Below are positions 147 to 8,759 of a stretch of 8,759 nucleotides of DNA, piece by piece. This stretch comes from Pseudomonadota bacterium (GTDB lineage Bacteria > Pseudomonadota > Gammaproteobacteria > Steroidobacterales > Steroidobacteraceae). The stretch lies in the NCBI GenBank assembly GCA_021805275.1, contig JAJZFQ010000265.1:1-8759 (forward strand). Reading direction: 5' to 3'. Position numbers and translations under genes: made by a program. The notes beneath the pieces are model-generated. The model was given only the letters and a program-made list of their open reading frames with translations, was not told the origin of the DNA and did not search any database. Every line of letters starts with the position of its first letter. The stretch's first letter is position 1.

Positions 147-162
147 CACCCTCAGGCGGGTG
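147..162. terminator. Possible weak bidirectional hairpin between convergent genes
   Basis: CACCC at 147-151 and GGGTG at 158-162 form a 5-bp perfect stem with a 6-base loop. It spans the 10-bp gap between the two convergent stop codons and runs into the last codons of the iorB-like gene. There is no T-tract on either side, so it is not a canonical intrinsic terminator. Position is the main argument for it. Confidence 0.2.
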
Positions 163-1705
163 TGGCCGCGTTCAGACGCAGATCCGCGAGTGCCTTGGCC
201 AAAGCCACGCCCTCCTCGTCGGCGAGCGCCGCAGTGTGAAGACAGGCGAGCGCTGCGGCACCGTCCGGGCGTGACGCGAGCGCATCGACCTGCGCGAACA
301 GCATGCTGAAGTTGCGCCAGCCGCGTTCGTGCGTCTCGCCGTATCCCTTGATCAGCCGCTGTGCGCGGGCCAGTTCGATGGCCAGGCGATGATGATCGGG
401 CGTCAAGCGTTCCAGTGTGGCCAACCACTTCTCGATGCGCCGGTCCTCGGTGCGGTACCGCAAGGTGGCACGCCGCCACCGGCGCAGCCCCGCGAGCATG
501 TAGAGCAGCAGAAATCCGCCGAGCGATGTGGTGCGGATGCGCCGCCCGCGGGCGAATCGAGCGAGCCGGGCGGCGATCCGCGGTGAGCGCAGGATCCAGC
601 CGCCGAGTCCCGCCGGCAGCGAATCGGCGATTTCCTGCACGCGCGGATGAACGAATTCCGTGATGCCGACGATCTGCTGTGCGCCGGCGCGCACTTCGCC
701 CCGCACGCGCTCGAAGCGCCCCGCGCGCGTCTTCAGGTCGGCGACCCGGATGGTGTCCTCGAACGTCATCCACAGAGCGAGCGAGCGAGCCGTCGCCTCG
801 CTGAGCGTCCAGGACCCGCTACCGTGGCCGGCCTCGAGCGCGACAATGCGCTTCAACCGCCCCAAATAAAGTGCAGCGTACTCGCGGTCCTGATATTCCA
901 AGGCGCGCCGCACGCCAGCCAAGGCGAGCGGCTGGACTGAGGGCGGCAGCGCTCGCAGCGCCGCGAGCAACGGCTCGAGCGCAGGCACCGCCGCCTGCTC
1001 CGGGAGCGACGGAAGTTCCGGGGCGGCATCCGACGAGCGTGGCCGCGCTGGCACAAGCTCGCCGCGCGCCACGCGCACCGCGTCCTCGAACGCCGCGAGA
1101 TTGGTCTCGACCGCGATCCCGCTGGCGCGTACGGCATGCTCGAACGCGCCGTGACGGAACGGCAGCACACCGCTGCCGCAGATCGCGCCGAGCACCACGG
1201 AACTGATCACGCTGTTGTGACGCTCGGCGAGCTCATTCATATCGAACAACACCAAACGTTTCGCCTGCTCGCTCAGCAGCTTGCTCAGCGCCTGCACATC
1301 GGCAATGCCCTGACCCATCGCACTTTTCTCGGCAATCGCAAAAGTGCGGTGAGAGGAGGCGATAACCGTCGTACGCGCGGGGTCGATGAGTCCGCGCTGC
1401 AGAGCCCGCCCTGCTTCTGCGAGCTCCGATGCCACGACGCAATCGACGTCTCCAGGTACCGGCATTAGCGCCATGACCGGTTCGAGACCGGCGGCCTCGG
1501 CGGCGGCGCGCGGAAAGAATTCCAGATAATAGATCGTCGCGCCAGTGCGCTGGGCCACACCGGGCACGGAAGTCGACTGGGCCAAGTAGCCTTCCGCTTC
1601 CGCGATTTGCACCAGCCAGTCCGCCAGCACACCGCCGCCCTGACCGCCCAGCGCAGCGATCGTCAGCGTGATCGGTCGGATGTCTGTCGTGGTTGCATCA
1701 CTCAT
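152..1705 (-). CDS. iorB: Indolepyruvate oxidoreductase beta-subunit family protein (long form, 2-oxoacid:acceptor oxidoreductase small subunit)
   Basis: A 517-residue protein, probably the small subunit partner of the iorA-like gene just upstream. Residues about 11-220 form the gamma-type domain of 2-oxoacid:ferredoxin oxidoreductases. The glycine-rich loop ALGGQGGGVLADW sits at residues 18-30 and is followed by VPGVAQRTGATIYYLEF, both typical of IorB. Classical IorB subunits are about 200 residues. Here about 290 more residues follow, mostly Ala/Leu/Arg helix-like sequence with a basic stretch (LRRWRRATLRYR) and a late conserved-looking block RLIKGYGETHERGWRNF. I take this to be the C-terminal extension seen in long IorB-family proteins and in fused IOR enzymes; its function is not known to me. 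The start is ATG at 1703-1705. The GGAG of its ribosome binding site overlaps the TAG stop of the iorA-like gene (only 11 bp between the genes), suggesting translational coupling. No membrane segments or Cys clusters are apparent. The substrate is uncertain: indolepyruvate is the family name, but an aryl 2-oxoacid such as isatinate is possible. Confidence 0.85.
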   Translation of the reverse strand: MSDATTTDIRPITLTIAALGGQGGGVLADWLVQIAEAEGYLAQSTSVPGVAQRTGATIYYLEFFPRAAAEAAGLEPVMALMPVPGDVDCVVASELAEAGRALQRGLIDPARTTVIASSHRTFAIAEKSAMGQGIADVQALSKLLSEQAKRLVLFDMNELAERHNSVISSVVLGAICGSGVLPFRHGAFEHAVRASGIAVETNLAAFEDAVRVARGELVPARPRSSDAAPELPSLPEQAAVPALEPLLAALRALPPSVQPLALAGVRRALEYQDREYAALYLGRLKRIVALEAGHGSGSWTLSEATARSLALWMTFEDTIRVADLKTRAGRFERVRGEVRAGAQQIVGITEFVHPRVQEIADSLPAGLGGWILRSPRIAARLARFARGRRIRTTSLGGFLLLYMLAGLRRWRRATLRYRTEDRRIEKWLATLERLTPDHHRLAIELARAQRLIKGYGETHERGWRNFSMLFAQVDALASRPDGAAALACLHTAALADEEGVALAKALADLRLNAATPA

Positions 1706-1716
1706 GCAGCGTTCTC

Positions 1717-3849
1717 CTACAGCGCATCACGGCGCAGGCGCCGCTCGCGCCGCCGCTGCAGCGTGCCGATGACGGCACGGCGTAGCTTGGCCATCACCCG
1801 GTCCCAGGCCGTGGGGTTGTAGAGCAGATCTGCACGGTAGAACGATGGACACAGCACCGCCGCGTGCGCGACCTCACCGCACACGCCGCAGCCGACGCAG
1901 CTGTGATCCACGTGAGCGACCGGATCGGTGCGCAGCGGATCTGGATTCGGCCGGAGGGTGAGGGAAGGGCAGCCAGACAGTCGGATGCAGGAATGATCCC
2001 CCGTGCAGGTATCGGCATCAACCCCGAAACGCTCCTGCACGACGCGCTCGCCCTTCTGGATCGCCGTGCGCGTCAGCGGGCGAATGCGCCGCTGACGATT
2101 CAGCTGACACTCTCCCTCGGCGACGATGATTTTCGGTCCTGGGGCTTCAGTGCTCAGCGCCTCGCGCAGCACGGCCAGGGTACCCTGCATATCATACGTC
2201 TTCGTGCGGCGCACCCACTGCACGCCGACACCCTTCACCGCCGTGACGATGGAATTGTTCCCCTGTCGCCCCGCCCTGACAGCACGAGAGGAGGGTATAT
2301 CCTGTCCGCCGGTGGCCGCCGAGTAATTGTTGTCGACAATGACCGTGACGTCGTCGTGACGATTGAATACTGCGTTGCCGATGCCACTGGTGAGTCCGTT
2401 GTGCCAAAATCCGCCATCGCCCATCACCGCCATGGCACGTCTCCCGCCGGCGCCGCTCAGCGCCGATGCTCCGGCGGAGCCGAGTCCGTACCCCATGATG
2501 CTGTTGCCCATGTTGAACGGCGGTAGCGTCGCAAAGGAATGACAGCCGATATCCGCACTGATGTGCAACGGCCCGATCTGCCGCTGCAGCAACTTCATGG
2601 CAGCAAAGAGCGGTCGCTCCGGGCAACCGGTGCACAGGCCCGAGGGACGCGGCGGGACGAGGTCGGCGAGTCTCTGAGACGGCACAGTGGAACGCGGCGG
2701 TCGCGCCGCGAGGGCCAGCTGCGGAGCCCAGCGCTCCAGCAGTACACAGATTCCCCGGCGCAGGACATCGACGGTGTACTCCCCGGCCATCGGCAGCAGG
2801 TCTTTGCCGAGCAACCGCGTACCGATCTCGTGACGGCGCAAAATCTGGCTCGCTCCCTGCTCAATGAACTCCGGTTGCCCTTCCTCGACCACCAGCACCG
2901 CGCGCTTGCCAGTGCAGAAGCGCACCCATTCGTCCGCGACCAGCGGGTACGTGGCGTTCAGTACATACAACGGTACGCGACTGATACCGAAGACGTCGGC
3001 ACAGCCGAGAATTTGCAACGCCCGCAGCACGCTGTTGTATAACCCACCCTGCAGAACGATCCCGATGTCGTTACGCTCGGCGTCGAGCAACTGGTTCACG
3101 CCGCGCTCGCCGAGGAAGCGCACTGCAGCGGGCAGGCGTTGCTCGATCTTCTCCCGTTCCTGTGCATACGTGGAGGGCGGGAGGATGATGCGCCCGTAAT
3201 CGCGCGAAGGTGACGCCAGCGCATCGGCGCGCGAGAATGTGGGGCGCCGATTGTCCGAGGCGATGAACCGTCCGTACACGTGGCAGGCACGGATGCGCAG
3301 CATCAACATCACCGGAGTGTGACTAGCCTCGGACAACTCGAATCCCTGTTCCACCGCGCGCACGATTTCCGGCAAATGCGGCCGCGGATCGAGCAGCCAC
3401 ATCTGCGACTTCATGGCAAATGCGTGGGTGCGCTCCTGCATGATGCTGGCACCCTCACCGTAATCCTCACCGAGGATGATCAGCGCCCCGCCCTTGACGC
3501 CCGCGGAGGCAAGGTTCGAGAGAGCGTCGGATGCGACGTTCGTGCCCACCGTAGACTTCCAGGTAACGGCGCCGCGCAACGGATAGTTAATGGAGGCCGC
3601 GAGCATCGCCGCAGCGGTCGCCTCGGACGCGCTCGCCTCAAAGTGCACGCCAAGCTCGGCCAAGATGTCCTCGGCGTCAGCCAGCACGTCCATGAGGTGG
3701 GAGATGGGCGCACCCTGATAGCCGCCCACGTATGCGACGCCTGACTGCAGCAACGCCTTGGTGACCGCCAGAATCCCTTCGCCGCGAAACTCCGCGCCCG
3801 CGCCGAGCCGAAGAGACTCCACTTGCTTCGCAAACGAGCGCTCTGCCAT
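1717..3849 (-). CDS. iorA: Indolepyruvate ferredoxin oxidoreductase alpha-subunit family protein (TPP and Fe-S large subunit)
   Basis: A 710-residue large subunit of a thiamine pyrophosphate-dependent 2-oxoacid:acceptor oxidoreductase. The family converts an aryl 2-oxoacid plus CoA to acyl-CoA and CO2, passing electrons to ferredoxin. Domain order: pyrimidine-binding domain about 20-200 (GGYQGAPISHLMD; Glu76 region; WKSTVGTNVASDAL); a transketolase-C-like domain about 265-375; CTGCPERPLF at 406-415; a TPP/Mg-binding domain about 410-560 with GDGGFWHNG from Gly477 and VDNNYSAATGGQ from Val505; and a C-terminal ferredoxin domain about 610-675. The ferredoxin domain has Cys615, Asp618, Cys621, Cys627-Pro and Cys651, Cys654, Cys657, Cys667-Pro. 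The first cluster motif is therefore CxxDxxC rather than CxxCxxC. The loop after the pyrimidine domain reads GEDYGEGASIMQERTHA where classical IorA has a DDPxxxSSQNEQD-like sequence, so this is a divergent subfamily. The ATG at 3847-3849 lies 14 bp after the cyclase-family gene, with only a weak GGCGGG ribosome binding site. It is second in a three-gene leftward operon. Family assignment is firm; the substrate is not. Confidence 0.88.
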   Translation of the reverse strand: MAERSFAKQVESLRLGAGAEFRGEGILAVTKALLQSGVAYVGGYQGAPISHLMDVLADAEDILAELGVHFEASASEATAAAMLAASINYPLRGAVTWKSTVGTNVASDALSNLASAGVKGGALIILGEDYGEGASIMQERTHAFAMKSQMWLLDPRPHLPEIVRAVEQGFELSEASHTPVMLMLRIRACHVYGRFIASDNRRPTFSRADALASPSRDYGRIILPPSTYAQEREKIEQRLPAAVRFLGERGVNQLLDAERNDIGIVLQGGLYNSVLRALQILGCADVFGISRVPLYVLNATYPLVADEWVRFCTGKRAVLVVEEGQPEFIEQGASQILRRHEIGTRLLGKDLLPMAGEYTVDVLRRGICVLLERWAPQLALAARPPRSTVPSQRLADLVPPRPSGLCTGCPERPLFAAMKLLQRQIGPLHISADIGCHSFATLPPFNMGNSIMGYGLGSAGASALSGAGGRRAMAVMGDGGFWHNGLTSGIGNAVFNRHDDVTVIVDNNYSAATGGQDIPSSRAVRAGRQGNNSIVTAVKGVGVQWVRRTKTYDMQGTLAVLREALSTEAPGPKIIVAEGECQLNRQRRIRPLTRTAIQKGERVVQERFGVDADTCTGDHSCIRLSGCPSLTLRPNPDPLRTDPVAHVDHSCVGCGVCGEVAHAAVLCPSFYRADLLYNPTAWDRVMAKLRRAVIGTLQRRRERRLRRDAL

Positions 3850-3863
3850 GGGCCCGCCGGCGC

Positions 3864-4670
3864 CTAGCTCGCCGGCACCAGCGCCAGCACCCGCAAGGGG
3901 CTGCCGGAACCATTGACGATCTTCAGCGGCGGGGCGATCACGATGGCACCGGTCGCGGGCAACTGGTCAAGATTCGTCAAACTGGCGAGCCCGAAGCGGT
4001 TCGACCCGTGCATGATGGTATGACAAGGGAACATCGGCTCGAAAGTCGGTGCCTGTCCGGCATCGGTGCCAACCGTCTCGACTCCGACGCCGAGGATGTC
4101 TCGTTCGCGCGCAAGAAACGGCACGCACTGCGGATGAAGCCCAGGGGTGTGTGCCCCATCTGAGCCGATGTTCAGGAACTCTTTTGCGGCCGTGCGCTTC
4201 GACCAGTCGGTCCGGATCAGCACCCAGGCGCCAACTGGAATTCGCCCATGACGGGACTCCCACACTTCGACATTTTCGCGCGTCAGCAGATAGTCCGCAT
4301 TGGCGCGAACGTTTTCCGACACGTCGATCACGCACGCCGGACCGATGAAGCGCTCGACCGGAATGTTGTGGGTCGCGTTCTGGGGATAATCCCTACCGGT
4401 CACCCAGTGGATCGGGGCGTCGAAATGCGTCCCGGTGTGCTCCCCGCAGGAAATATTGTTCCAGTACCACGCCGGTCCCCGTTCGTCGTAGCGGGAGATC
4501 TCCTGCAGCGCGAATGGCTTCGACGGCGCGAATTGCGGCGGTAGCTGGATCGTGGCCGTCGAGGGGTCCAGCGGCACGGTCAGGTCAACGACTCGAACGG
4601 CACCACCACCCAGCGCTGCTACAAGTTCAGCGAGGACCTGGGACTGGGGGGCTTTGGCAGCAGCACTCAT
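3864..4670 (-). CDS. Cyclase-family metal-dependent hydrolase (isatin hydrolase / kynurenine formamidase superfamily)
   Basis: A protein of 268 residues from the preferred start. The hallmark is HTGTHFDAPIHW, with metal-ligand candidates His78, His82, Asp84 and His88, matching the HxGTHxDxPxH motif of the cyclase superfamily (Pfam family PF04199). Later family features include GVGVETVGTDAG, CHTIMHGSNRFG (His217, His221) and LTNLDQLP. Members hydrolyse cyclic or linear amides using Mn or Zn. Known cases are bacterial kynurenine formamidase (about 210 residues) and isatin hydrolase (about 260 residues, opening isatin to isatinate). The length and the indole-related neighbours favour the second type, but this is inference. 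An in-frame GTG at 4683-4685 would add five residues. I chose ATG at 4668-4670 because GGAG lies nine bases upstream of it, while the GTG has no visible ribosome binding site. There is no signal peptide, so it is probably cytoplasmic. It is the first gene of the leftward operon and is divergent from the flavoprotein gene. Confidence 0.85.
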   Translation of the reverse strand: MSAAAKAPQSQVLAELVAALGGGAVRVVDLTVPLDPSTATIQLPPQFAPSKPFALQEISRYDERGPAWYWNNISCGEHTGTHFDAPIHWVTGRDYPQNATHNIPVERFIGPACVIDVSENVRANADYLLTRENVEVWESRHGRIPVGAWVLIRTDWSKRTAAKEFLNIGSDGAHTPGLHPQCVPFLARERDILGVGVETVGTDAGQAPTFEPMFPCHTIMHGSNRFGLASLTNLDQLPATGAIVIAPPLKIVNGSGSPLRVLALVPAS

Positions 4671-4711
4671 GTCACTTGTCTCCACTTGAGCGAACCGGGC
4701 GGGTCGGGGGA

Positions 4712-4740
4712 CTTATAGTTGACACCTCAAGCATTTGAGA
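4712..4740 (-). promoter_or_regulatory. Possible weak promoter of the leftward cyclase-iorA-iorB operon
   Basis: On the minus strand, TATAAG (4712-4717) could be a -10. A hexamer 17 bp upstream (4735-4740, TCTCAA) is a poor -35 and falls within the palindrome. The transcript would start about 35-40 bases before the ATG at 4670. A weak -35 would fit an activated promoter, or a promoter repressed jointly with its divergent neighbour. This rests on the sequence pattern only. Confidence 0.3.
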
Positions 4741-4747
4741 ATATAAC
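4719..4747 (+). promoter_or_regulatory. Sigma-70-type promoter of the rightward flavoprotein operon
   Basis: TTGACA at 4719-4724 (a perfect -35) and TATAAC at 4742-4747 (one mismatch from TATAAT) are separated by exactly 17 bp. The expected transcript start is about 4753-4755, giving an untranslated leader of roughly 40 bases before the GTG at 4796. A strong constitutive-looking promoter with an inverted repeat in its spacer suggests control by repression. Confidence 0.75.
4726..4739. promoter_or_regulatory. Palindromic operator candidate in the divergent control region
   Basis: CTCAA-GCAT-TTGAG is a perfect inverted repeat with 5-bp arms, lying between the -35 and -10 of the rightward promoter. 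It also covers the place where a -35 for the leftward operon would lie. MarR-family dimers commonly bind short AT-containing palindromes over promoters, and a MarR gene is third in the rightward operon, so it is the natural candidate to bind here. No second copy was noticed elsewhere in the window. Confidence 0.5.
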
Positions 4748-4783
4748 ACAGGCCCTCGGTGAATGCGATACCGCCTGAAGACT

Positions 4784-4789
4784 GAGGAG
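4784..4789 (+). promoter_or_regulatory. Ribosome binding site that fixes the flavoprotein start at GTG 4796
   Basis: GAGGAG lies six bases before the GTG at 4796-4798. The upstream in-frame ATG at 4763 would begin only about nine bases after the predicted transcript start and has no ribosome binding site. The GTG reading also gives the N-terminus expected for an FAD-binding monooxygenase, with the glycine-rich loop starting at residue 8. Confidence 0.7.
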
Positions 4790-4795
4790 ACCGCC

Positions 4796-7078
4796 GTGAA
4801 ACGAGTCGTCTGTGTCGGCGGCGGGCCGGCTGGACTGTACGCTGCCATCTTGCTGCGTAAAGCATTGCCACGCGCCCGGATCGACGTATTTGAGCGCAAT
4901 CGCCCGGATGACACCTTTGGCTGGGGAGTCGTGTTCTCCGATCGAACCATTGACAACTTCCGCCGTGCCGATGCGCCCACACATGCAGCGATCACCGCGG
5001 AGTTCCATCACTGGGACGGCATCGCAATCCACTTTCGCGACCGCACCTTCCTCAGCGGCGGGCACGGATTTTGCGGCCTGGGTCGCAAACGGCTGCTCGC
5101 GCTTCTGCAGGAGCGCGCGCATGAGCTCGGCGTGCAGCAGCATTTCCAGCGTGAAATCGACTGCGACGAGGAATTCGACGATGCCGATCTGATCGTGGCG
5201 GCCGATGGGATCAACAGCAGGACGCGAACCCGCTATGCCGAGGCGTTCGCACCGGAGCTCGACCGGCGCAATTGCCGCTACATCTGGCTCGGCACGACTC
5301 AGCACTTCGCAGCCTTCACCTTCGCGTTCGAGCAGACCGAGCATGGCTGGTTCCAGATCCACGCCTACCAGTTCAGCGATGAGCTCTCGACGGTAATCGT
5401 CGAGACGCGCGAGGAGACCTGGAAGGCCCACGGACTCGACCGCTGCGACACTGCTGGATCGATTGCCTTCTGCGAGCATCTGTTCGCCCGCTACCTCGGT
5501 GGCCACCGTTTGCAGAGCAATGCCACGCACCTGCGCGGCTCCGCGTGGTTGAATTTTCTGCGAGTCAACTGCAAACACTGGTCGCACGGCAAGAGGGTGC
5601 TGATCGGCGATGCGGCGCACACTGCGCACTTCTCTATCGGTTCGGGCACGAAGCTCGCGATGGAGGACGCCATCTCGCTCTCGCAGCACGTGATCTCGGG
5701 TGCGCCGCTCGCCGAAGCGCTGCAGTCGTATCAGAAGGAGCGCAGCCTCGAGGTATTGAAGCTGCAGAGCGCGGCACGCAACCGCATGGAATGGTTCGAG
5801 CACGTCGCACGCTACGCGCAGCTCGAGGCGGAGCAGTTCGCCTACAGCCTGCTCACTGGCAGCCAGCGCATCGGTCACGAAAACCTCAAAGCGCGCGACT
5901 CTCGATTCGTCGAGGGCTTCGAGCACTGGCTCGCCGGGCGTGCCGGCCTCGAGAAGCGGCGCCCGCCGATGTTCCTGCCGTTTCGACTGCGCGGGTTGGA
6001 GCTCGAGAACCGAGTGGTCGTCTCCCCCATGGACCAATACAGCGCCACCGATGGGATGCCCGATGAGTGGCATCTCGTACACTACGGTCACCGGGCACTC
6101 GGCGGGGCAGGACTCATTTATACAGAGATGACCTGCGTCTCGCCGGAGGGGCGCATCACGCCGGGCTGCACCGGTCTGTGGAACGAGGCGCAGCGCGATG
6201 TCTGGCGGAAAATCGTCAGCTTCGTGCATGCCCGCACGCCGGCCCGAATCTGCTTGCAGCTCGGCCACGCCGGCCGCAAAGGATCGACTCAGCTCGGCTG
6301 GCAGAGAATGGACCACCCGCTCGAGCGCGACAACTGGCCGCTCATGGCGCCCTCAGCCCTGCCCTACCTCGACGGTATCAGCGCGACCCCGCAAGAAATG
6401 TCCCGCGCGGACATGGATGCGGTACGCGAGCAGTTCGTGCACGCTGCCCGGCTCGGGGCCGAAGCGGGCTTCGACATGCTCGAACTGCATATGGCACATG
6501 GCTATCTGCTCGCCTCGTTCCTCTCGCCGCTGACCAATCAACGGCGCGATAAATACGGCGGCAGCATCGGCGGCCGGTTGCGCTTCCCGCTCGAGGTCCT
6601 GAATGCGGTGCGCGCAGTGTGGCCCGACGAACGGCCGCTCTCGGTGCGTCTTTCGGCCACGGATTGGGCCGAGGGGGGACTTTCCGACGAGGATCTGCTT
6701 GCGATCGCCCGGGCACTGAAGGCCGCGGACACCGATCTGATCGATGTCTCGACCGGCCAGACTGTCCCCTGGCAGGCGCCCGTGTACGGGCGGATGTGGC
6801 AGACCCCCTTCGCCGACGAAGTGCGCAACGAAATTGGCATCGCCACGCTGGCCGTCGGGAACATCTACGAGTCGGATCACGTCAACACCATCATCGCCGC
6901 GGGTCGCGCCGACCTGTGTGCGGTCGCCCGGCCGCATCTGGCCAACCCGGCCTGGACGCTCGAGGCAGCTGCCCGACAGGGCTACTCGGCGCAATGGTGG
7001 CCGAAACCGTATTTGGCGGGCAAGGCACAGCTTGAACGCAACTTGCAACGCTCGGCAGCAGCCGGAGCCTCGGAGTGA
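4796..7078 (+). CDS. Bifunctional 2-aminobenzoyl-CoA monooxygenase/reductase (salicylyl-CoA 5-hydroxylase/oxidoreductase family)
   Basis: A two-domain flavoprotein of 760 residues from GTG 4796. Residues 1 to about 380 are a class A FAD monooxygenase: [11 protein letters not shown] dinucleotide loop near residue 8, DVFERN at the end of the second strand, DG motif at Asp137-Gly138, and [15 protein letters not shown] around Asp272. From about residue 392 to the end is an old-yellow-enzyme reductase with FMN. It shows [45 protein letters not shown], the substrate-binding pair His565/His568 in HMAHGY, and [14 protein letters not shown]. This fusion and length match 2-aminobenzoyl-CoA monooxygenase/reductase. 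In Azoarcus evansii that enzyme uses O2 and NADH to hydroxylate and then reduce the thioester, producing a non-aromatic oxocyclohexene-carboxyl-CoA. Salicylyl-CoA is an alternative substrate often used in database names. Where YqjM-type enzymes carry Cys near the FMN (SPMC), this protein has Asp413. First gene of the rightward operon; its TGA overlaps the SDR start. Confidence 0.9.
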
Positions 7079-7875
7079 TGCACACGGGCACGGCTGCCGA
7101 GAATCCGTCGCTCCACGGCAGGCATGCGGTCGTGACCGGCGCGGGCCGCGGCATCGGAGCCGCATGCGCCGCGGCGCTCGCCGCGAATGGTGCGCGCGTG
7201 ACACTTCTCGGCCGAGACCTGAGCCGTCTGGAGGACACCGCACAAGCTGTCGGTGGTGCGCCGCGGGCTCTGCCGCTCGAGGCGGATGTCACCGACGAGG
7301 CCTCGTTGGAGCGCGCATTCGGCGCGGCCCGCGTCGAATTTGGACCGGTGCACATTCTCATCAACAACGCCGGACGGGCCGCGAGCGCGAAATTCACCGA
7401 CACCGATCCGGCACTCTGGCAAGCGCTGCTCGCCGTCAATCTCACTGGTCCGTACCTGTGTGCCCGGCAAGCGATTCCGGACATGCTGACTGAAGGGTTC
7501 GGACGCGTCGTCAACATAGCGAGTACCGCTGGCCTGCGCGGTGGCGCTTACATCGCTGCGTACGCCGCCTCCAAGCACGGTGTCATCGGACTGACGCGCT
7601 CGCTCGCGCTCGAGTACGCCGCGCGACCGATCACCGTCAATGCTCTGTGCCCTGGATTCACCGACACCGACATCGTCAAAGACGCCATCGCCCACATCAC
7701 GAGCAAGACCAACCGCACCCCGGAACAGGCGCTCGAGTCACTGCGCACCGCAAACCCGCAACGGCGACTCATCACACCGGTCGAAGTGGCCCACGCGATG
7801 CTGTGGCTGTGTCGTCCGGGAACCGAGAGCATCACGGGCCAAAGTCTCGCGATAGCCGGCGGAGAGGTGTACTGA
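7078..7875 (+). CDS. SDR-family NAD(P)-dependent dehydrogenase, likely 3-hydroxyacyl-CoA dehydrogenase
   Basis: A classical short-chain dehydrogenase of 265 residues. It has the coenzyme loop TGAGRGIG at 20-27, a NNAG motif, the catalytic serine in IASTAG (Ser149), and YAASK with Tyr162 and Lys166. The ending GQSLAIAGGEVY is the usual SDR C-terminus. The family oxidises or reduces hydroxyl/keto groups with NAD(H) or NADP(H). In this operon it most likely handles a hydroxyacyl-CoA or ring hydroxyl/keto intermediate formed after ring reduction. That role is inferred from its place between the monooxygenase/reductase and the enoyl-CoA hydratase. The start is ambiguous: ATG 7078 overlaps the previous stop (TGATG), while GTG 7075 would add one residue. 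GGAG at 7064-7067 could serve either. Its TGA overlaps the MarR start by one base, so translation is probably coupled on both sides. Confidence 0.87.
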   Translation: MHTGTAAENPSLHGRHAVVTGAGRGIGAACAAALAANGARVTLLGRDLSRLEDTAQAVGGAPRALPLEADVTDEASLERAFGAARVEFGPVHILINNAGRAASAKFTDTDPALWQALLAVNLTGPYLCARQAIPDMLTEGFGRVVNIASTAGLRGGAYIAAYAASKHGVIGLTRSLALEYAARPITVNALCPGFTDTDIVKDAIAHITSKTNRTPEQALESLRTANPQRRLITPVEVAHAMLWLCRPGTESITGQSLAIAGGEVY

Positions 7876-8390
7876 TGGCCCGTAACACAGATTGCAAGGA
7901 AAGGACTGCAGCCGTCCCAGTCGACGCCGAGACCCGGCTGAATGACGATCATCACATCTCGGTACGCCTGTGGCTGCGACTGCTCTCCTGCACCAACCAG
8001 GTGGAGGGCCGTATCCGCCAGAATCTGCAGACACGTTTCAGTACCACGCTGCCGCGCTTCGATCTGATGGCGCAGCTCGAACGGGCGCCGGACGGGTTGA
8101 AGATGAGCGAACTGTCGCAGCGCATGATGGTCACCGGCGGCAACGTCACGGGCATCACCGACGGATTGCAGAAGGAGGGGCTGGTGATCCGCGAGGTCGA
8201 TCCGGCCGACCGGCGGGCATTTCGCGTCAAACTCACCGCCGAGGGTGTACGCCAGTTCGCACGCATGGCAAGCGAGCATGAACAATGGGTCATCGATCTG
8301 TTCAGCAAGCTCTCGGTGCGCCAGAAACGCGACCTGATGGATCTGCTCGGGCTCCTGAAGGAGTTCGTGCAGCTGCCGGCGCAGCACTGA
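7875..8390 (+). CDS. MarR-family transcriptional regulator
   Basis: A 171-residue protein starting at ATG 7875-7877. The ATG overlaps the SDR stop in a TGATG arrangement and has GGAGAGG at 7861-7867 as ribosome binding site. The same frame is open further upstream over the SDR gene, but that extension is a shadow. It shows the MarR plan: N-terminal helix VRLWLRLLSCTNQVEGRIRQ (about 30-49), core PRFDLMAQLERAPDGLKMSELSQRM, recognition-helix region VTGGNVTGITDGLQKEGLV (about 86-104), the wing DPADRRAFRVKLT at 109-121, and C-terminal dimerisation helices. MarR proteins are usually repressors released by a small ligand, and several in aromatic catabolism respond to CoA thioesters (BadR, CouR, FerC). 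Its position inside the operon suggests it controls this divergon, probably through the palindrome at 4726-4739, with an aryl-CoA intermediate as inducer. Both points are inference. Confidence 0.9.
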   Translation: MARNTDCKERTAAVPVDAETRLNDDHHISVRLWLRLLSCTNQVEGRIRQNLQTRFSTTLPRFDLMAQLERAPDGLKMSELSQRMMVTGGNVTGITDGLQKEGLVIREVDPADRRAFRVKLTAEGVRQFARMASEHEQWVIDLFSKLSVRQKRDLMDLLGLLKEFVQLPAQH

Positions 8391-8400
8391 GGTGGTCCGT

Positions 8401-8759
8401 ATGAACCCTGATAGCATATTTGACATCGAGCGATTCGAGCCCCGCCACTTCCGTTGGCACGCACACGACCACATTGGCGTGATCACCCTTGACCGACCAG
8501 AACGCAAGAATCCGCTGACGTTCGACTCGTACGCCGAGCTTCGCGATCTGTTTCGCAATCTGCGCTCGATTCGGAGCGTCCGCGCCATCGTTATCACGGG
8601 CGCCGGCGGCAACTTCTGCTCCGGCGGCGACGTGCACGAGATCATCGGCCCGCTCACGACCATGGATGCGGCCGGACTGCTTGCGTTCACGCAGATGACC
8701 GGCGATCTGGTCAAGGCGATGCGTGGCTGTCCGCAGCCGATCATCGCCGCCGTCGATGG
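8401..8759 (+). CDS. Enoyl-CoA hydratase/isomerase family protein, 5' part (runs off window end)
   Basis: The first 119 codons of a crotonase-fold protein, starting at ATG 8401. The preceding GAGGTGG (8389-8395) overlaps the MarR stop, and the gap between the genes is 10 bp. Recognisable pieces are GVITLDRPERKNPLTFDSY (first strand and CoA-binding turn), RAIVITGAGGNFCSGGDVHEI (the SGGD oxyanion-hole loop, about residues 76-81), and CPQPIIAAVDG leading into the second oxyanion region, which is cut off. The catalytic acidic residues lie beyond the window, so hydratase versus hydrolase or isomerase cannot be decided. Enoyl-CoA hydratases of this sort accompany the 2-aminobenzoyl-CoA and benzoyl-CoA pathways, where they add water to, or open, cyclic dienoyl- or oxo-CoA intermediates. 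The N-terminus is about 20 residues longer than the minimal fold. Confidence 0.88.
   Translation, partial: MNPDSIFDIERFEPRHFRWHAHDHIGVITLDRPERKNPLTFDSYAELRDLFRNLRSIRSVRAIVITGAGGNFCSGGDVHEIIGPLTTMDAAGLLAFTQMTGDLVKAMRGCPQPIIAAVD

Follow-up and report, generated by a model that had tools for sequence, protein, structure and literature searches.

A divergent gene cluster of a Steroidobacteraceae bacterium predicted to lead from isatin to 2-aminobenzoyl-CoA without a ligase

Isatin is a product of the breakdown of indole and plant auxin. Here, we analyzed a putative isatin-degrading gene cluster in a bacterium of the family Steroidobacteraceae (GenBank assembly GCA_021805275.1; 3.52 Mb, 76 contigs, 97.4% complete), which lies in a stretch of 8,759 nucleotides, hereafter the window, corresponding to the first 8,759 bases of the 18,455-base contig JAJZFQ010000265.1 (C16). 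Reading frames and family matches revealed a divergon. Its leftward arm carries the genes for a predicted isatin hydrolase (IH) and for the two subunits of a 2-oxoacid:ferredoxin oxidoreductase (IorA and IorB, together IorAB) in the order IH-IorA-IorB. The rightward arm carries 2-aminobenzoyl-CoA monooxygenase/reductase (ABM; CoA, coenzyme A), short-chain dehydrogenase (SDR), a MarR-family regulator, enoyl-CoA hydratase (ECH), acyl-CoA dehydrogenase (ACAD), RidA and a second flavoprotein of the Old Yellow Enzyme (OYE) type, in that order. The gene list of an earlier sequence-only reading of this DNA proved right.

According to our analysis, the divergon would form one catabolic unit for isatin. 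IH would open isatin to isatinate (2-aminophenylglyoxylate), and IorAB would convert isatinate and CoA, by oxidative decarboxylation, to 2-aminobenzoyl-CoA, CO2 and reduced ferredoxin. ABM would then hydroxylate and reduce the thioester to 2-amino-5-oxocyclohex-1-ene-1-carbonyl-CoA, and RidA, SDR, ECH and ACAD would take over enamine/imine removal and beta-oxidation. An ATP-dependent aminobenzoate-CoA ligase would be dispensable here, because the thioester would form during decarboxylation. We consider it likely that this direct route from isatinate to 2-aminobenzoyl-CoA operates in the window locus. The locus itself displays the gene identities and order, a closed ligase slot, an assembly with no recognized ligase and a linkage conserved in other genomes.

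An operon without a ligase gene

The aerobic 2-aminobenzoyl-CoA pathway of Aromatoleum (Azoarcus) evansii relies on an AMP-forming ligase to activate anthranilate (consulted sections of PMC4539516). The window operon resembles that pathway in that the ABM flavoprotein is followed by beta-oxidation enzymes, and control operons of the A. evansii kind share ABM, SDR, MarR, ECH, ACAD and RidA with it. Unlike them, the window operon has no ligase gene, and IH-IorAB is added divergently. The AMP-forming aminobenzoate-CoA ligase of a classical abm operon is thus missing, and the slot that could hold it is closed, as the ACAD and RidA genes overlap (Table 1). No AMP-binding profile match was found on the 18,455-base contig, and ligase protein probes gave no match to it, so a ligase farther down the operon was rejected.

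The slot was measured in 20 loci, picked since both ACAD and RidA showed (G, C and L are our labels for genomes, contigs and loci). A ligase lies between ACAD and RidA in L161, L163, L166 and L169, where the gap is 1,662–3,686 bp. The gap is -21 to 17 bp in L034, L037, L046, L028, L201, L209, L171 and L172, 2 and 33 bp in L083 and L213, and 382–404 bp, with no ligase, in L038, L047 and L204. Six of the 11 ABM loci of the class that lack IH (L160–L170) contain a ligase (L160, L161, L163, L166, L169 and L170), which adjoins ACAD in L160 and L170; L164, L165, L167 and L168 are cut or partial. L027 is an exception, with IH present and a ligase behind RidA.

Elsewhere in the own genome, none of the seven AMP-binding matches exceeds 228 bits to TIGR02262 (benzoate-CoA ligase), for which the cut-off is 375 bits. 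Ligases near ABM genes reach about 339–430 bits, and A. evansii KB740 has two, of 370 and 371 bits, at a distance of 4.2 kb from its pair of ABM genes. Four of the seven proteins were scanned further: one was closest to long-chain fatty acid ligase models and one to a fatty acyl-AMP ligase model (both below cut-off), the third was an acetate-CoA ligase (over cut-off), and the fourth, a 513-aa protein on contig C20 with 182 bits to TIGR02262, was assigned to no family. Among NCBIfam models, those at L011 (acetoacetyl-CoA-synthetase-like by eye), L012 and L013 were scored against TIGR02262 only. The sequence-only reading, which saw no aminobenzoate-CoA ligase, is therefore borne out by the end of the operon, the closed slot and a genome with no TIGR02262 match over the cut-off.

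The C20 protein lies in L031 (G000:C20, 4683–12126), where it comes after molybdenum-hydroxylase-like frames and is accompanied by an ECH-like and an SDR-like gene, the families being named partly by eye; this is another catabolic cluster of the same genome.

Distribution of the ligase among genomes with and without isatin hydrolase

The sequence-only reading had proposed searching genomes for conserved co-occurrence of these genes, and this was found. IH is present in 7 and ABM in 16 of 369 genomes of the class, and 5 of the 7 IH genomes also have ABM (hypergeometric p = 1.6e-6). A draw of 398 genomes across the phylum gave ABM in 68, of which 64 had not been searched before; together with the 16 from the class they make up a set of 80 ABM genomes. 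In the 64 new genomes, the ligase search used a floor of E 1e-98 (about 330 bits) and the best 19 candidates, at most, per genome. IH was found in 23 of them and a ligase in 60; the four in which no ligase was found (G672, G439, G725 and G752) all have IH.

Over the 80 genomes, the search for a TIGR02262 ligase gave no hit in 8 of 28 with IH, compared with 0 of 52 without it (Fisher p = 1.1e-4), and the eight span seven families. The same pattern was obtained when genera (6/18 with IH vs. 0/35 without; p = 8e-4) or families (6/13 vs. 0/20; p = 1.5e-3) were counted. The absence is less sure in G672, where 19 of 76 candidates were scored, and in G725 (19 of 20); excluding both, the counts are 6/26 and 0/52 (p = 9e-4). 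Two further genomes fall outside this tally for having no ABM, namely G314 (IH and IorA) and G228 (an IH-like match of 39%).

A related pattern was seen around the ABM genes themselves (n = 82). Within 15 kb, a ligase is near 5 of 17 that have IH near and 51 of 65 others (p = 2.5e-4). Within 10 kb the counts are 3/15 and 52/67 (p = 5e-5), a value that overstates independence, since the 12 ABM loci with IH and no ligase belong to only five families, one of which accounts for eight. Neither IH nor a ligase lies within 10 kb of 15 ABM genes, several of which are at contig ends.

Genomic contexts of isatin hydrolase in named species

An alignment scan for IH in genomes of named species gave at least 587 confirmed relatives, of which the best 80 loci were kept. 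In 19 of these, IH has IorA or IorB within 3 kb; in nine others, all of the auxin-degrading iad type (Aromatoleum, Achromobacter, Bordetella), the distance is 3–10 kb. Another 23 loci have a two-subunit thiamine enzyme near IH (22 within 3 kb, one farther); IorAB and this pair occur together in none of the 80 loci within the stretches examined. The remaining 29 have neither, although in three of them IH is directly followed by an IorA that the contig end truncates, and in one it adjoins a TPPb fragment. The thiamine pair scored below cut-off against models for both sulfopyruvate and phosphonopyruvate decarboxylase, and this sulfopyruvate-decarboxylase-like enzyme is a possible isatinate decarboxylase. 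Such loci, among them L043, L055, L076, L102 and L110, come from Chloroflexi, Acidobacteria, Gemmatimonadetes, Planctomycetota and other groups. In L110, a single case, the thiamine pair, IH and an ABM operon share the locus with a ligase-like gene, as would be expected if the pair makes no thioester.

A subset of 27 of the 80 loci, mostly picked for IorA, was examined for ABM, which 26 of these IH genomes contain. These 27 were also searched with TIGR02262, the best 37 candidates, at most, being scored per genome. A match of at least 340 bits was found in neither of the two with a cut IorA (L082, L084), in all five of the iad type (L049, L073, L080, L088, L094) and in L110. L034, the nearest relative with the cluster, gave no TIGR02262 match at E 1e-85. 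In L087 (Haliea sp. E1-2-M8, 3500–20700), iad-like Rieske, IadF-like ligase and thiolase genes are followed by IH-IorAB and then by ABM genes, so that one 20-kb locus possibly covers the path from auxin to ring opening.

The predicted role of IorAB

The substrate and CoA product predicted for IorAB are based on the chemistry, the gene linkage and the loss of the ligase, and the order of the steps is likewise a prediction. IorB scores 646.8 bits against NF006179 (cut-off 348) and contains PF01558 and DUF6537, and IorA contains PF02775 and the cysteines C651-x2-C654-x2-C657-x9-C667. The reaction proposed here has a counterpart in phenylglyoxylate:acceptor oxidoreductase, which converts an aryl-2-oxoacid to aryl-CoA by oxidative, CoA-dependent decarboxylation. 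That enzyme is multi-subunit, whereas IorAB has two genes, and the two are likened by reaction, not by sequence.

IorAB homologues (IadA and IadB) also occur in the iad auxin locus of Variovorax, Bradyrhizobium and Achromobacter, together with IadI, annotated as kynurenine formamidase; the iad route passes through isatin and isatinic acid, with anthranilate given as the product, and the consulted sections assign no role to IadAB (PMC9613470, PMC12633357). Unlike the iad locus, the window contig has an ABM operon and no Rieske, IadF or thiolase genes, so that the iad set (Rieske IadDE, IadF ligase and thiolase with IH and IorAB) is not found on it. The own genome holds five Rieske matches, one of them 33% alike to the iad large subunit, with no small subunit found on its stretch. 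An iad front end was not found in the own-genome stretches examined, the iad proteins having been compared with only some of the contigs.

Several observations, besides the family clustering and the less certain ligase absences already mentioned, weigh against the direct route. A TIGR02262 ligase is retained in 20 of the 28 genomes with IH and ABM, so that in most of them the direct route would be supplementary. In G202, G703 and G707 both IH and a ligase lie within 10 kb of ABM, and among the named species 8 of the 19 genomes in which IH has IorA or IorB within 3 kb also yielded a TIGR02262 match of 340 bits or more (L037, L042, L044, L058, L067, L070, L075 and L079). One of these, L037, is the second-nearest relative with the cluster, and its match is of the benzoate type, at 805 bits. 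Conversely, L162 has a closed slot and no ligase in the locus, yet lacks IH; a 390-bit ligase is found elsewhere in its genome.

The IorAB proteins themselves also count here. The window IorA scores 272.8 bits against TIGR03336, below the cut-off of 650.9 for the classical IorA model, and is best described as a relative of indolepyruvate ferredoxin oxidoreductase that falls outside the equivalog. In the IorA tree (32 rows with IH within 3 kb, two with IH farther away and nine with no IH on the stretch), the IH-linked proteins do not form one clade: linkage changes seven times, and seven unlinked rows fall among linked ones, one of them (L215) from a genome whose IH lies on a different contig. 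The idea of a single IH-linked clade was rejected on this intermixing. In L163 (G087:C115), IorAB stands beside an ABM operon with a ligase, and no IH was found in that genome.

Finally, in Variovorax the cloned region iadC-K2 restores anthranilate, according to the consulted part of a preprint (PMC12633357). The Conway legend gives IadA as COG4231 and IadB as COG1014; from this and the gene names, iadAB appear to lie outside the cloned region, which implies that isatinate can reach anthranilate another way. In the window genome, a CoA-transferase or an unrecognized ligase may activate anthranilate.

In the strongest alternative, IorAB would act on another 2-oxoacid (indolepyruvate, phenylpyruvate or phenylglyoxylate), and isatinate would reach free anthranilate by other means, to be activated by an unrecognized ligase or CoA-transferase before ABM. 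Besides L163 and the Variovorax result, it is favored by IorA relatives away from IH: neither IH nor ABM is seen in any of the seven such places that were fetched (L221–L227, one of them just 4.1 kb in length), and one lies beside KorAB-like frames and another beside a PaaK-like frame, as judged by eye. The unassigned C20 protein could be taken as a candidate ligase, but its TIGR02262 score is low and its neighbors are molybdenum-hydroxylase-like by eye. Moreover, IorA begins only 14 bases past IH in the window and adjoins IH in many loci, and ligase absence in the 80-genome tally is confined to genomes with IH. We therefore consider this alternative unlikely. The sequence-only reading had offered a related option, with IorAB acting on indolepyruvate and the hydrolase working elsewhere. 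This has become less likely, because of the same 14-base spacing and because other phyla pair IH with a different thiamine-dependent 2-oxoacid enzyme.

The direct route would also accommodate a further result from Variovorax. Strains overexpressing iadC-K2 accumulate C8H7NO3 and C7H7NO, both read as intermediates by the authors in the consulted sections (PMC12633357). The former corresponds in formula to isatinate and the latter to isatinate after loss of CO2, which would be consistent with the pathway being blocked at IorAB.

Identity of the hydrolase

The sequence-only reading had placed the hydrolase, of about 268 residues, in the isatin hydrolase superfamily. The length agrees (268 codons from the ATG at 4670, read by eye), and the assignment is supported by the PDB scores and active-site residues. 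The protein matches PF04199 (cyclase domain) with 137 bits. Its four best PDB matches are isatin hydrolases (5nmp, 5nna, 5nnb and 4j0n; 272–348 bits, E 4e-103 to 7e-80), and the fifth, at 117 bits, is an unnamed cyclase-family protein. Residues named for these isatin hydrolases are His69, His73, Asp75, His79, Asp193 and His207, with a GLAS or GLQC motif, and verified KynB/kynurenine formamidases have a metal-binding Glu at that motif position (PMC6117287, in the sections consulted). We transferred these reference residues onto the window protein through the alignment of the PDB match. The Mn ligands His-His-Asp, the catalytic Asp-His-His and the motif are all present, as H83, H87, D89, H93, D208 and H222 (numbered from 4685), invariant in an alignment of six homologues, and as GLAS at 232, the Ala of which occupies the position of the KynB metal-binding Glu. 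The protein is similar to LaIHA, LaIHB and RsIHA over about 255 residues and in the metal ligands, with GLAS as in LaIHB, and no difference from them was seen in the named catalytic residues (PMC6117287, same sections). By homology, there is strong support for an isatin hydrolase rather than an arylformamidase.

The opposite assignment, a kynurenine formamidase or other cyclase-family amidase in a cluster for tryptophan/kynurenine breakdown to anthranilate, could draw on the shared superfamily and fold, on a weak match to the arylformamidase model TIGR03035 (40.6 bits; cut-off 223) and on the kynurenine formamidase annotation of iadI in Variovorax mentioned above. However, the kynurenine formamidases in PDB score at most 32 bits (E 1e-6 or worse), against 272–348 for the isatin hydrolases, the Ala of GLAS replaces the metal-binding Glu, and one kynureninase-like probe gave no match on the window contig. 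A kynurenine formamidase identity was rejected on the PDB scores and the motif, and this reading as a whole is highly improbable.

The ABM operon and its putative control region

In ABM, FAD_binding_3 is fused to Oxidored_FMN; it scores 1249 bits against NF006101 (cut-off 1078) and shares 60 and 61% identity with the two ABM proteins of A. evansii KB740, from which species the enzyme has been purified (PMC4539516, consulted in part). The ABM step is thus assigned with good confidence by homology. That the flavoprotein might instead act on salicylyl-CoA or another aryl-CoA, as the NCBIfam name of the family (bifunctional salicylyl-CoA 5-hydroxylase/oxidoreductase) would allow, with the isatin branch and the ABM operon as chance neighbors, is very improbable given this identity, the co-occurrence of IH and ABM far above chance and, indirectly, a RidA gene that would fit an enamine product.

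An SDR match lies beside ABM or inside its operon in most control loci, and a MarR match is also present in 9 of the 11 control ABM loci without IH. The 125-bp gap between IH and ABM, counted from starts read by eye (for ABM, the GTG at 4796, preceded by GAGGAG), contains a promoter-like element directed to ABM (TTGACA at 4719–4724, 17 bp, TATAAC at 4742–4747). It is overlapped by TTGA-N4-TCAA (4719–4730), a candidate MarR operator, through which the operon may be controlled. The nearest two loci, L034 and L037, show the same arrangement, and of the 31 other loci with IH and/or IorAB that were scanned they are the only ones to do so. Lone operator-like sites occur in L046 and L220 and lone promoter-like sites in L027 and L204; neither kind was seen in nine control loci. 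A promoter scanner gave no hit; its rule requires T at the sixth base of the -10 element.

Layout of the locus

The coordinates are given in Table 1. The sequence-only reading correctly described the operon as continuing past the window, as ECH, ACAD, RidA and OYE extend it up to 12324; its interval for the locus, 3864–8759, leaves out IorAB (152–3849), which its text includes. The second OYE gene (10876–12324 in L005) matches models of BaiCD-type and ABM reductases weakly and partially, and it has homologues at 60–70% in L037, L046 and L083. It is followed by an unrelated ABC-F-like gene, named by eye. At the other end, positions 1–141 of the plus strand encode the C-terminal end of an acyl-CoA dehydrogenase, glutaryl-CoA-dehydrogenase-like by eye. 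Here, 139 bases match the beginning of contig C7 at 97% identity, which indicates that the contig breaks inside a repeated gene.

Table 1. Features of the divergent cluster, in contig coordinates (identical to window coordinates up to 8759)
Feature	Position	Strand	Basis
IorB, 2-oxoacid:ferredoxin oxidoreductase gamma-type subunit with DUF6537	152..1705	-	PF01558, PF20169, NF006179
IorA, thiamine-diphosphate subunit, C-terminal Fe-S cysteines	1717..3849	-	PF02775; TIGR03336 below cut-off
Predicted isatin hydrolase (IH)	3864..4670; open frame to 4685	-	PF04199, best PDB matches, residues
Putative divergent control region	4671..4795		sequence
ABM, predicted 2-aminobenzoyl-CoA monooxygenase/reductase	4796..7078; open frame from 4763	+	FAD_binding_3 + Oxidored_FMN, NF006101
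Short-chain dehydrogenase (SDR) of ABM operon	7075..7875	+	PF00106
MarR-family regulator	7875..8390	+	PF12802/PF01047
Enoyl-CoA hydratase (ECH), PRK08258 type, 5' part in window	8392..8759; gene end at contig base 9228	+	NF006107, 182 bits on partial protein
Acyl-CoA dehydrogenase (ACAD)	9185-10459, outside window	+	contig reading frames
RidA	10446-10847, outside window	+	named by eye
Second OYE-type flavoprotein	10876-12324, outside window	+	contig reading frames

Implications

The ligase-dependent pathway, the isatin hydrolases and the iad locus are already known, as is the co-location of IorAB with such a hydrolase in iad loci. A literature search, with partial coverage and few subscription papers, found no published statement of the conversion of isatinate to 2-aminobenzoyl-CoA by IorAB; the proposed IorAB substrate and the ligase-free junction would therefore be new.

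In a wider reading, which we regard as evenly balanced, the IorAB of IH loci would be an isatinate:ferredoxin oxidoreductase (CoA-acylating), a new substrate for the family, and would join indole and auxin breakdown to 2-aminobenzoyl-CoA without ATP. IadA/IadB would do the same, the anthranilate of the iad route would be overflow, and the build-up of C8H7NO3 and C7H7NO would reflect the missing IadAB; in Chloroflexota, Acidobacteriota and others, the sulfopyruvate-decarboxylase-like thiamine enzyme would use isatinate without CoA.

In conclusion, comparison of the ligase slot provides a simple genomic marker that separates the two routes. If the proposed route is true, it would assign a role to the IorAB genes in auxin-degradation loci and add a branch of aromatic degradation in which no ATP is spent on activating the acid and electrons are recovered as ferredoxin. 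It would also alter the view of what isatin and auxin are finally converted to by soil and plant-associated bacteria.

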